From the NCBI GenBank assembly GCA_938034415.1, contig CALHLE010000013.1, positions 1-64,000 on the forward strand: DNA of 64,000 nt. Reading direction: 5' to 3'. The notes beneath the pieces were generated by a model. The model made no database searches and had not been told where the DNA came from. It saw only the letters and a list, made by a program, of their open reading frames with translations. Shown piece by piece: positions 49,286-52,171 of the stretch. Position numbers and translations under genes: made by a program. Numbering within the stretch: the first letter of the stretch is position 1; every line of letters begins with the position of its first letter. Origin of the DNA: an uncultured Anaerolineae bacterium (GTDB lineage: Bacteria; Chloroflexota; Anaerolineae; J036; Brachytrichaceae).

Positions 49286-49315
49286 CAGTAGGGAGCACGG
49301 GCATGCTCCCTACTG
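49286..49315. repeat. perfect 12-bp inverted repeat upstream of pyrG
   Basis: Arms 49286-49297 and 49304-49315 (CAGTAGGGAGCA and its complement) with a 6-nt loop. It lies in the 5' region of pyrG, about 87-116 nt before the start codon. The rest of 49200-49285 shows no other clear signal. Confidence 0.75.
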
Positions 49316-49380
49316 ATGAATTCGGGGTAGGTGACGCGCAAAGGGATCGATTGAGATGTCTTGGCGCTGCAGCACGCCGA

Positions 49381-49386
49381 ATTATA
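49381..49386 (-). promoter_or_regulatory. -10 element (TATAAT) for pyrG
   Basis: A perfect TATAAT on the minus strand, about 180 nt upstream of the pyrG start. A TTGAGT at 49402-49407 (15-bp spacer) could serve as -35. The transcript would contain the 49286-49315 hairpin in its leader. Confidence 0.4.
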
Positions 49387-49464
49387 TAGCGCCGGCGGCA
49401 AACTCAAACGCTCGTCTAATCGGGCCGCAGCTCCCATCGTAGTTGCCCCGTTGCCCTGCAGGGC

Positions 49465-49493
49465 TTGACAACGCAGCTTAAAGTCATTAGTAT
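49465..49493 (+). promoter_or_regulatory. sigma-70-type promoter of the SAM riboswitch unit
   Basis: TTGACA at 49465-49470, a 17-bp spacer and TAGTAT at 49488-49493. Transcription would start near 49500, about 25 nt before the riboswitch. It is the best full promoter in the window. Confidence 0.75.
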
Positions 49494-49524
49494 TGCGCCT
49501 CGACAATTTAAGTTCGTAAGCACA

Positions 49525-49622
49525 CTCTTATCCAGAGCAGTGGAGGGACCGGCCCGATGAAGCTGCGGCAACCTGGAGCGAACAAGGTGCCAATTCCGGC
49601 AGCGAAAACTGGAAGATGAGAG
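49525..49622 (+). promoter_or_regulatory. SAM-I (S-box) riboswitch aptamer
   Basis: The sequence follows the SAM-I consensus in order: CTCTTATC, GTGGAGGGA, GGCCCGATGAA, GCGGCAACC, GGTGCCAATTCC, GGCAGCGAAAACTGG and GATGAGAG. P1 pairs CTCTTATC with GATGAGAG, P2 has GCAG/CTGC, P3 ACCT/AGGT, and P4 the CAG/CTG stem with a GAAAA-type loop. These are the conserved SAM-binding core positions. It binds S-adenosylmethionine and reduces expression of downstream sulfur genes when SAM is plentiful. The next gene is a sulfurtransferase. Confidence 0.93.
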
Positions 49623-49644
49623 CGCGCTAATGCACCAAGCCGTT

Positions 49645-49678
49645 ATCGCCCTCTTGCACAGTTTCGCAAGAGGGCGAT
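49645..49678 (+). terminator. riboswitch expression-platform terminator hairpin
   Basis: Perfect 13-bp arms 49645-49657 and 49666-49678, with an 8-nt loop and the weak T-rich stretch TCGCTTCT after it. The left arm contains CCTCTT, which could pair with the 3' strand of P1 (GAGAG, 49618-49622). That would make P1 and the terminator exclusive with an antiterminator. Confidence 0.7.
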
Positions 49679-49725
49679 TCGCTTCTGACGAGAGTGTTCT
49701 TGCGGACCCGCCCTGGAGGTACGGC

Positions 49726-49782
49726 ATGGACACGATCACGCACAGAATACCCCTCGCAACTATGCGGTGCTTGTGTATTTAG
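49726..49782 (+). CDS. candidate 18-residue leader peptide with two Cys codons
   Basis: A short ORF, MDTITHRIPLATMRCLCI, with a GGAGG at 49715-49719, 6 nt before its ATG. The codons for Cys15 (49768-49770) and Cys17 (49774-49776) are the last but three and last but one sense codons. The TAG stop (49780-49782) overlaps the first bases of a GC-rich hairpin (left arm from 49781). Leader peptides with Cys codons control sulfur genes in mycobacteria by ribosome stalling; here the role is an inference from position, codon content and geometry. The sequence downstream to 49981 otherwise lacks a convincing ORF. Confidence 0.5.
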   Translation: MDTITHRIPLATMRCLCI

Positions 49783-49817
49783 CGGGTCGGCCGCTCCGAC
49801 GCGGCATGTGACCCGCT
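49781..49817 (+). terminator. second hairpin in the sulfurtransferase leader
   Basis: Outer arms 49781-49788 and 49810-49817 (8 bp) and inner arms 49790-49794 and 49801-49805 (5 bp), followed by TTTCCCC. It starts inside the stop codon of the 18-codon leader ORF. It could be a terminator or attenuator; the T-tract is weak. Between 49818 and 49981 I see no further clear structure apart from the ribosome site GAGGAG at about 49964. Confidence 0.5.
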
Positions 49818-49981
49818 TTCCCCATCTGCGCCCTGTCGCCAAATTTCGCGCGTGGCCGGTCGGCGCTTGTGTAGGCCGGCTCGCCTTTGGCGCACCTCGC
49901 TGTCAGGCGCATGAACCTGATGCGAGATCAACTTGATCAATCTGACTGATTTCAATCCGATTTGAGGAGTAAAGTCACGCT

Positions 49982-50830
49982 ATGAGCACATCTGCATATG
50001 CCCATCCCGAAGCATTGGTCAGCACCGACTGGCTGGCTGAACATCTCAACGATCCGAACGTGCGCATCGTGGAATCAAACGAAGATCCGCTGCTGTATGA
50101 CACCGGTCACATCCCCGGCGCAATCAAGATTGACTGGACAACCGACCTGAACGATCCGGTGAAGCGCGATTACTTGGACTCGGCGCACTTCGCGGAGCTG
50201 CTGAGCAGCAAGGGCATCGCCAACGACTCGTTTGTGGTGTTCTACGGCGACAAGAACAATTGGTGGGCGACCTATGCCTTCTGGGTTTTCCAACTGTTCG
50301 GTCACACGAAAGCCGCCATCTTGAACGGCGGGCGCAAAAAGTGGATCGACGAGGGTCGTCCGCTGACGCGCGAAGTGCCCGCATATCCGCGCACCCAGTA
50401 CAACGCGCCGCCGCGCGACGACAAGACCATCCGCGCCTTCCGCGACGAGGTGCTGAAGCACGTGCAGAGCAACGGCGTGCTGGTGGACGTGCGCAGCCCG
50501 GCCGAATACACCGGCGAACGGCTGCACATGCCCGAATATCCGAACGAAGGCGCGCTGCGCGGCGGCCATATTCCCGGCGCGAAGAACATCCCCTGGGCGC
50601 AGGCCGTGAGGGAAGACGGCACGTTCAAGCCCCGCGAGGAACTCGAAGCGCTCTACCGCAGCAAAGGCATCACGCCGGACAAGGAAATCATCGCCTATTG
50701 CCGCATCGGCGAGCGCAGCAGCCACACGTGGTTTGTGCTCACCTATCTGCTCGGCTACCCGCGCGTGAAGAACTATGACGGAAGCTGGACCGAGTGGGGC
50801 AACAGCGTCGGCTTGCCGATAGAGAAATAA
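49982..50830 (+). CDS. thiosulfate sulfurtransferase (CysA/SseA-type rhodanese)
   Basis: A 282-residue protein of two rhodanese domains. The first (about 8-130) lacks the catalytic Cys, and the second ends in the active-site loop [22 protein letters not shown], with [11 protein letters not shown] after it. This is the form of actinobacterial CysA2/SseA sulfurtransferases, which pass sulfane sulfur from thiosulfate to acceptors. The riboswitch and leader upstream tie it to methionine/cysteine supply. The ATG at 49982 follows GAGGAG at about 12 nt. Confidence 0.93.
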
Positions 50831-50956: not shown

Positions 50957-52171
50957 ATGTGCAGTTACCGCTTTGACACTCGGCTGGTACACATCGGCGA
51001 GCGGCCGATCAGTCGGGCCGCCTGGCGCGACGCCACACCGACCAGCGCGCCTATTCACTGTAGCGCCACCTTCCTATATCCGACGGCGCAGGCGCTGGAC
51101 GAAGCGTTCGCGGCGGGCGGCGACCAAGTGGTCTACACGCGCTGGGGCAACCCCACCGTTCAGGCGCTGGAGGCGCTGATGGCCGACCTGGAGGAGGGGC
51201 GCGGGGCCATCGCTTGCAGCTCCGGCATGGCGGCGTTGTATCTGGCGTTGCTGGCCGCCGGCACGCCGCGCGGCGCGACCGAGCCGCATCCGCGCCGCAT
51301 CCTCGCCTCGCGCGATCTCTACGGCGCAACCGAGGCGCTGCTGCGCGACTTTTTCGCCGCGCAGTCCGTCGCGGTGCGCTACTGCGACATGAGCGACCTG
51401 GCCGAGGTCAAAGCGGCAATCGGCGCACACGCGCCGGATGTGGTGCTGCTCGAATCGCTATCCAACCCATTGCTCAAGTGGGCGGATGTGGAAGCCATCG
51501 CGCATTATGCGCATCAGGCCAATGCGCGCGTCGTTGTGGATGCCACCCTGGCGACGCCGGTGTTACACCGGCCGTTGACGCAAGGCGCGGACTTCGTCGT
51601 GCACAGCGCGACGAAGTACCTCGGCGGCCATGCAGACGCGACCGGCGGCATCCTCGTTGCGCGCACCGGCCTGTTGCTCGATACGGCGCGGCGCTACGCT
51701 ATCCAGCTCGGCGTGAGCCTAGGCCCATTCGAGGCGCGGTTGATCGCGCGCGGCATCCACACGCTGGGGCTGCGGGTGCGCCGGCAATGTGAGAGCGCGC
51801 TGATCATCGCCCAGGCGTTGCAGAAACACCCGCGCGTCCGTCGCGTGATCTACCCGGGCTTGCCCGAGCATCCCCATCATCGCCTGATGTCGTTGCAGAC
51901 GTGCGGCCTATTCGGCGGCCTGATCTCGTTCGAGCTGGCCGACGCCACGCGCACGGCTGCCTTCGCCTTCATAGACCGGCTGAAGCTGATCCTGCCTGCG
52001 ACCAGCCTGGGCGACATCTACTCGCTGATCACGTATCCGGCGATCTCATCGCATCGCGAACTGAGCGAAGCGCAGCGCGCCGAGCGCGGCATCGGCGATG
52101 GCCTGCTCCGCTTATCGGTCGGCATCGAGGACCCGCAAGACATCTTGGCCGACCTTGAAAGCGCGCTGTAG
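50957..52171 (+). CDS. Cys/Met metabolism PLP-dependent enzyme (cystathionine gamma-synthase/lyase family)
   Basis: A 404-residue fold-type I PLP enzyme. FDTRLVHIGERP and YTRWGNPTVQALEALMADLEEG are the family start; ACSSGMAALYLALLA is the PLP-phosphate loop; DATLATPVLHRPLTQGADFVVHSATKYLGGHADATGG carries the catalytic Lys; PAISSHRELS is the C-terminal motif. Choice between cystathionine gamma-synthase, beta/gamma-lyase and methionine gamma-lyase cannot be made from the sequence. The ATG at 50957 begins the conserved part. It lies downstream of the SAM riboswitch unit, though a hairpin intervenes. Confidence 0.9.
   Translation: MCSYRFDTRLVHIGERPISRAAWRDATPTSAPIHCSATFLYPTAQALDEAFAAGGDQVVYTRWGNPTVQALEALMADLEEGRGAIACSSGMAALYLALLAAGTPRGATEPHPRRILASRDLYGATEALLRDFFAAQSVAVRYCDMSDLAEVKAAIGAHAPDVVLLESLSNPLLKWADVEAIAHYAHQANARVVVDATLATPVLHRPLTQGADFVVHSATKYLGGHADATGGILVARTGLLLDTARRYAIQLGVSLGPFEARLIARGIHTLGLRVRRQCESALIIAQALQKHPRVRRVIYPGLPEHPHHRLMSLQTCGLFGGLISFELADATRTAAFAFIDRLKLILPATSLGDIYSLITYPAISSHRELSEAQRAERGIGDGLLRLSVGIEDPQDILADLESAL

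Follow-up and report, generated by a model that had tools for sequence, protein, structure and literature searches.

Organization of the leader region

The window analysed here is the whole stretch of 64,000 nucleotides from contig CALHLE010000013.1 of an uncultured Anaerolineae bacterium, read on the forward (+) strand, on which all features described below lie. The gene at 49982–50830 encoded a CysA-type thiosulfate/mercaptopyruvate sulfurtransferase with two rhodanese domains. Its nearest PDB entries (1uar, 3p3a, 3hwi, and 3aax) were bacterial thiosulfate sulfurtransferases, and its closest named relatives were chloroflexotan, on which ground an actinobacterial origin of the DNA was rejected. 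This gene was predicted to be the regulated one. A Cys/Met-metabolism PLP enzyme (50957–52171, ATG at 50957; Pfam PF01053, E 1.1e-108) was the probable second gene of the operon, and the same neighbour was found in locus L135.

The intergenic region before the sulfurtransferase (49305–49981) contained a promoter-like site, a SAM-I aptamer, a terminator-like hairpin, a leader ORF, and a leader hairpin. The promoter-like site TTGACA-17-TAGTAT (49465–49493; TTGACA at 49465, TAGTAT at 49488) had a counterpart at the same position, with a closely similar sequence, before the riboswitch of the other genus loci. The SAM-I (S-box) riboswitch aptamer (49525–49622) matched Rfam RF00162 with 82.6 bits (E 5.6e-18; gathering score 44.4). 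RF00162 alone reached the covariance-model threshold in the window, and no T-box was found there. The terminator-like hairpin of the SAM-I expression platform (49645–49678) had a 13-bp stem (z -4.3), the tail TTCGCTTCT, and a weak U-run; it was kept in five other genus loci.

The leader ORF (49726–49782) ran from an ATG at 49726 to a TAG at 49780–49782 and encoded the 18-residue peptide MDTITHRIPLATMRCLCI, whose C-terminal end was Cys-Leu-Cys-Ile-stop. Cys15 was encoded by TGC (49768–49770) and Cys17 by TGT (49774–49776). A Shine-Dalgarno site GGAGG (49715–49719) preceded the ATG with a 6-nt spacer, and GGAG was kept in the other genus loci; with this site and a distance of about 230 nt to the promoter-like site, the ORF was not leaderless. 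A sequence-only reading of this DNA had described such an ORF with GGAGG before its ATG, a Cys-Leu-Cys-Ile-stop end, and a stop codon overlapping the foot of a 37-nt hairpin, and all of these were found (the last at 49780–49817). Its placing of the ORF between the SAM-I terminator and the sulfurtransferase was confirmed by the RF00162 match and the rhodanese domains. The leader peptides matched none of the Cys-rich leader families of NCBIfam.

Short ORFs with at least two Cys codons among their last six codons were found in about 12% of leader-free 450-nt upstream regions, so the window's ORF, taken by itself, could be due to chance. The conservation seen on comparison with homologues made chance highly improbable for it.

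Leader hairpin and predicted masking by the ribosome

The leader hairpin of 37 nt (49781–49817; -25 kcal/mol) started inside the stop codon of the ORF. The stretch 49770–49825 had z = -3.6, and none of 200 shuffles was equally stable. TTCCCC followed the hairpin directly and opened a G-poor pyrimidine tail (49818–49830), a candidate termination tail by its family-wide composition. In 23 loci of the window's family, the first 10 nt after the hairpin contained 9% G and about 75% C+T, and the 20 nt after the hairpin were strikingly G-poor in this family (9–13% G). The tail was thus pyrimidine-rich and not a clean U-run. No U-run terminator was found at the window's locus, nor any other strong terminator downstream in the window's genome. 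One weak U-run candidate was found in the genus (L137 only), and terminators beyond the leader hairpin were scattered weak candidates in the family.

Ribosome positions were modelled with the standard footprint, in which the edge is placed 15–16 nt from where the P-site codon starts. A ribosome paused for Cys17 would have its edge at 49786–49787; the predicted hairpin energy then changed from -25.3 to -11.5 kcal/mol, a cost of about 14 kcal/mol, and the outer stem was lost. A ribosome waiting for Cys15 would have its edge at 49780–49781 and leave the stem intact. The earlier proposal that a ribosome on either Cys codon would block the hairpin therefore held for Cys17 and failed for Cys15.

The stem started 7 nt after the first base of the Cys17 codon. 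Since only a stall at Cys17 would mask the stem, and since Cys17 is also the invariant rare codon, Cys17 should be the sensor. Of the 191 Cys codons in 39 long window ORFs, 25 (13%) were UGU. Because UGU is normally decoded by wobble pairing with the only tRNA-Cys(GCA), it would be the slower codon. In contrast to these leaders, cysteine T-boxes are reported to use UGC (PMC2940859).

Homologous leaders and their conservation

In 28 genomes of the family, the pattern TGYYTNTGYNNNTAGCGGG, which left synonymous positions free and required the Cys codons and TAGCGGG, matched 25 times, compared with 7 matches of the reversed control. Of the 25 sites, 22 had both leader and hairpin, followed either by a sulfur-related gene or by the end of the contig. 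The pattern matches L134, L146, L148, L150–L152, L155–L157, and L159 were rejected as chance, having no leader ORF or no hairpin or lying inside a gene. L259 was also rejected as a leader, and L258 was neither accepted nor rejected.

A covariance model built from the pattern matches was run on a class sample of 396 genomes and had matches in 47 of them. At least 50 homologous leaders were recognized, and 50 of them, a part of the covariance-model matches, were read one by one. They came from five families of the class, as counted from genomes some of which were incomplete bins. In a phylum sample of 400 genomes with strict filters, no match was found outside the window's family at E ≤ 0.005, and the members in other families of the class came from the class sample only. 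Three of the nine genus genomes gave no match, and the upstream regions of L008 and L009 had no leader.

The Cys-x-Cys-x end was present in all 50 homologues, and UAG followed it in 47; in the other three, the frame lacked UAG and continued into the hairpin. The first Cys codon was UGC in 45 and UGU in 5, and the second was UGU in 50 of 50, compared with 13% UGU in the window's ORFs. The codon between them varied (Leu in 33, Ser in 14, and Phe, Val, or Ile in the rest), as did the codon after the second Cys. The distance from the first base of the second Cys codon to the start of the stem was always 7 nt. Five pairs of the outer stem were examined; they were pairable in 50 of 50, and one of them was seen as G-C, G-U, and A-U. 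The comparison of related leaders that the sequence-only reading had suggested thus gave a kept ORF and kept Cys codons, both across the class and in the six genus genomes, where the 18-codon ORF with its invariant C-L-C-x-stop and the hairpin were found in 6 of 6 loci. Compensatory changes in the hairpin were found in part: the inner helix showed G-C to A-U in genus g1, where the shuffle control was weak (87 of 500), and A-U to G-C and C-G to U-A in family f38 and one f31 locus.

These counts were partly affected by ascertainment, because both the Cys codons and TAGCGGG were required by the pattern, whose matches in turn served to build the model. Two checks were free of it, a gene-first search and selection on the first 16 codons of the DUF4395 leader. 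In the gene-first search, the leader was present at each of the six cysK genes that share 79% identity or more with the L142 gene, with one Val for Leu and one shifted stop among them, and in genus g7 the five stand-alone DUF4395 genes had it without exception. Purifying selection (pN/pS 0.23) was seen on codons 1–16 of the DUF4395 leader, a part that the pattern does not cover. For the genus g1 peptide, pN/pS was 0.74 over the whole length and 0.85 without the last four codons; as selection over this whole peptide was weak, the coding argument rests on the Cys end.

In L118, L120, L144, L149, and L117, the peptide M.ARL..HL[IV]YQAYRGCLCR before a DUF4395-thioredoxin gene was conserved as a protein. 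Four of these five leaders looked leaderless, with TATCAT about 7–10 nt before the ATG.

Downstream genes and tandem arrangement with SAM-I

In the window's genus, the leaders headed sulfurtransferase operons in three genomes (G000, which is the window's own, G003, and G004) and an SsuA-like ABC operon in three others (G001, G005, and G006). A sulfurtransferase gene and a DUF4395 gene lay about 3–4 kb further along in G006, probably in the same operon as the SsuA-like ABC genes. Across the class, the leaders were followed by cysK, by a ThiS/CysO-like carrier and then a rhodanese-ThiF fusion, or by a sulfurtransferase; further genes encoded an NMT1/SsuA-like binding protein, OsmC, DUF4395 with thioredoxin, beta-carbonic anhydrase, and a Peripla_BP_6 transporter. 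The ORF after cysK looked like cysE on the basis of a weak hexapeptide-repeat match. Nearly all of the at least 50 leaders preceded cysteine or sulfur genes. As most of the downstream genes serve cysteine supply or sulfur trafficking, the signal would be cysteine rather than leucine or serine.

The window's genome (2.8 Mb) contained three SAM-I riboswitches. A mismatch-tolerant pattern search of this genome gave three sites, namely the window's leader, a second leader on contig C18, and C9:34421, which was about 66 kb away from the SAM-I site of its contig. Since the other pattern sites were not behind SAM-I, only the window's riboswitch precedes a Cys leader in this genome. A SAM-I riboswitch immediately upstream of a Cys leader was found in 11 loci (six in the window's genus and five in genus g7), which preceded four kinds of gene or a contig end. 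The order SAM-I, SAM hairpin, Shine-Dalgarno site, 18-codon ORF with C-L-C-x-UAG, and hairpin was kept in 6 of the 9 genus genomes. The putative dual-input arrangement for SAM and cysteine is conserved across the 11 loci, and such a series would be predicted to keep the gene off unless both SAM and charged tRNA-Cys are low.

The second leader of the window's genome (L187; G000:C18:46500-49500, minus strand, about 1564–1440) was of another type. It had a 40-codon ORF ending in MACLCTARAGRLEADARR before the stop and a hairpin GCGCGGGCT/AGCCCGCGC, and it lay before a Peripla_BP_6 ABC transporter; core sites of this type were near-identical in G002, G003, G004, G006, and G008. At L262, a classical C-L-C-R-UAG leader preceded a Peripla_BP_6 protein, a hint at a sulfur compound as the transporter's substrate. 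In G333 (L261), a C-L-C-S-UAG ORF lay about 460 nt before an SsuE-like FMN reductase gene, with an indistinct hairpin.

Proposed mechanism and alternative explanations

The leader of the window is likely a two-input RNA attenuator composed of a SAM-I riboswitch and a Cys leader peptide. RNA polymerase would pass the riboswitch first, where plentiful SAM would stop transcription. The transcripts that escape would encode the 18-residue leader peptide. With enough Cys-tRNA, the translating ribosome would pass Cys15 and Cys17, halt at UAG, and leave, after which the stop-codon hairpin would fold and the sulfurtransferase operon would be off, most likely because transcription would terminate at the hairpin or directly behind it. 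Under a shortage of Cys-tRNA, the ribosome would wait at the UGU of Cys17 and cover the left arm, so that no hairpin would form and the operon would be expressed. The interpretation of the locus as a Cys-responsive attenuator, put forward in the sequence-only reading, thus appears largely to hold. Coverage of the stem by a ribosome at the stop codon until its release counts against the simple model, and severe starvation is not simply explained, since a ribosome stalled at Cys15 would leave the stem free.

The window's leader belongs to a class-wide set that would form a ribosome-read cysteine regulon. A broad formulation of this regulon seems somewhat favoured, in which Chloroflexota of this class read cysteine on C-x-C(UGU)-x-UAG leaders, the invariant wobble-read UGU at a fixed distance before the stop-codon hairpin would be the sensor, and in two genera the leader would act in series with SAM-I, with the gene fully on only when SAM and cysteine are both low.

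The output step appears to differ by family. In f38 and the f31 locus L204, a canonical intrinsic terminator started about 160–210 nt downstream of the Cys codons, and its left arm contained GCCGG..CTCATC(G), with CTCATC or a variant of it. A conserved GCGATGAG was found just after the leader hairpin in the loci L153, L154, L158, L192, and L195–L208 (all of f38 except L204, which is f31). This element could pair with the left arm of the terminator as an antiterminator, and in these loci the leader hairpin may serve as the opening half of a classical attenuator. Constrained equilibrium folding of the f38 leaders with and without a ribosome mask did not reproduce the switch, and the terminator stayed stable in most. 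In the window's family, there was no f38-like terminator apart from scattered weak candidates, and the 20 nt after the hairpin were G-poor, and for these reasons the leader hairpin itself is probably the place where transcription ends.

The lack of a U-run after this hairpin is a poor argument against termination, because the SAM-I hairpin of the same RNA also has a weak U-run. It bears on the main rival, an output dependent on Rho, in which the Cys-sensing leader would be the same and Rho, after the ribosome leaves, would load on the G-poor, pyrimidine-rich RNA past the hairpin, while a stalled ribosome would prevent Rho from stopping transcription. The low G content after the hairpin in the 23 family loci, the genus's own loci with no U-run terminator apart from one weak candidate, and the presence of a full Rho gene are consistent with it, and Rho was proposed for actinobacterial cys leaders without terminators (PMC1262725). 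However, at only about 20 nt the G-poor stretch is small for Rho loading, this model assigns no clear function to the conserved hairpin, and weak U-runs may be normal in the genus, as the SAM-I terminator indicates. A Rho-dependent output is considered unlikely, and termination at the leader hairpin is preferred.

Control of translation is less probable still and is regarded as quite unlikely here. It would require that the ribosome position alter RNA folding so as to sequester the sulfurtransferase's ribosome-binding site, a mechanism reported for mycobacterial polycysteine ORFs and cited as translation attenuation in PMC13236596. The leader hairpin, however, ended 165 nt before the gene start and paired within itself, and the spacer between hairpin and gene showed little conservation among the genus loci. 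A further reading, in which the ORF arose by chance and the hairpin is just a second terminator or a processing site, would fit the frequency of Cys-ending short ORFs in GC-rich upstream regions (about 12%), but codons, stop position, spacing, and gene context were conserved in 50 loci of five families, and the gene-first search with cysK and DUF4395 also contradicted it, which makes this explanation highly improbable. The preferred reading is still an attenuator whose hairpin would end transcription unless a ribosome waits at Cys17.

Comparison with known cysteine leaders

The chloroflexotan leaders resemble the mycobacterial polycysteine leaderless ORFs in being short ORFs with Cys codons near the stop, before cysteine genes, at several loci per genome, and many of them look leaderless, with TATAAT or TATCAT 7–10 nt before the ATG. 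Unlike the polycysteine run, they have two Cys codons in a fixed C-x-C-x-stop, followed by a conserved hairpin that begins in the stop codon. The mycobacterial ORFs are reportedly (in work attributed to Canestrari, from 2020) governed by a translational mechanism involving the ribosome position, unlike the output proposed here. The window's ORF further differs in having a Shine-Dalgarno site and sitting behind a SAM-I riboswitch. Because it has neither the polycysteine run nor the leaderless start, it was not placed in the mycobacterial family.

Actinobacterial cys-operon leader peptides (PMC1262725) also have Cys codons near the stop upstream of cys genes, but in runs and without a conserved hairpin, whereas the hairpin is the most conserved part of the chloroflexotan leaders. 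In Rhodobacterales, uORFC-8-2 before cysS (PMC8632094) likewise combines two conserved Cys codons with an attenuation structure; in this alphaproteobacterial case, however, the Cys codons are adjacent and inside the stem, the terminator has a U-run, and cysS is the single target, while the window's Cys codons are one codon apart and outside the stem and the gene is a sulfurtransferase. The upstream half of the window's leader is a full member of SAM-I (RF00162), here with a second, putatively cysteine-reading control in series. As in the control of ubiG in Clostridium acetobutylicum (PMC2940859), RNA would regulate one sulfur operon by cysteine and SAM signals; ubiG uses a Cys T-box and an antisense S-box RNA, in contrast to a leader peptide in series with a sense S-box. 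A literature search for cysteine leader-peptide attenuation in Chloroflexota found no earlier description. The C-x-C(UGU)-x-UAG-hairpin form, the tandem SAM-I, and the chloroflexotan host are found in none of the known cysteine leaders compared, and the window's leader, judged from its sequence, is a new form of putative ribosome-mediated attenuation.

Control by cysteine leader peptides, known from Actinobacteria and one alphaproteobacterial case, would thereby reach into a class of Chloroflexota, where the leader signature is compact and can be searched for. A single leader that joins a riboswitch for a metabolite with a sensor based on translation would act as a natural gate with two inputs, serving the methionine and cysteine branches. 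The poorly known genes tied to cysteine supply (DUF4395, the OsmC protein, beta-carbonic anhydrase, and the Peripla_BP_6 transporter) would gain testable functions, and the invariant UGU beside a fixed hairpin makes codon-specific stalling directly testable.

Additional elements in the leader region

The sequence GCTTGTGTA at 49865–49873 repeated the same nine letters that span Cys15 to Cys17. This repeat was located in a hairpin GGCCGG..GGCCGG downstream of the leader; it was found in L137 as GCTTGTGTG and was absent from L135.

A long helix of 49510–49532 with 49687–49708 (15 of 16 pairs around UUCGUAAGCACACUCU/AGAGUGUUCUUGCGGA; duplex -22 to -28 kcal/mol) enclosed the entire SAM-I riboswitch and its terminator and overlapped the 5' strand of the aptamer helix P1. 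The helix was absent in genus g7 and present in 6 of 6 leaders of the window's genus, where it may open the aptamer after transcription has proceeded beyond it.
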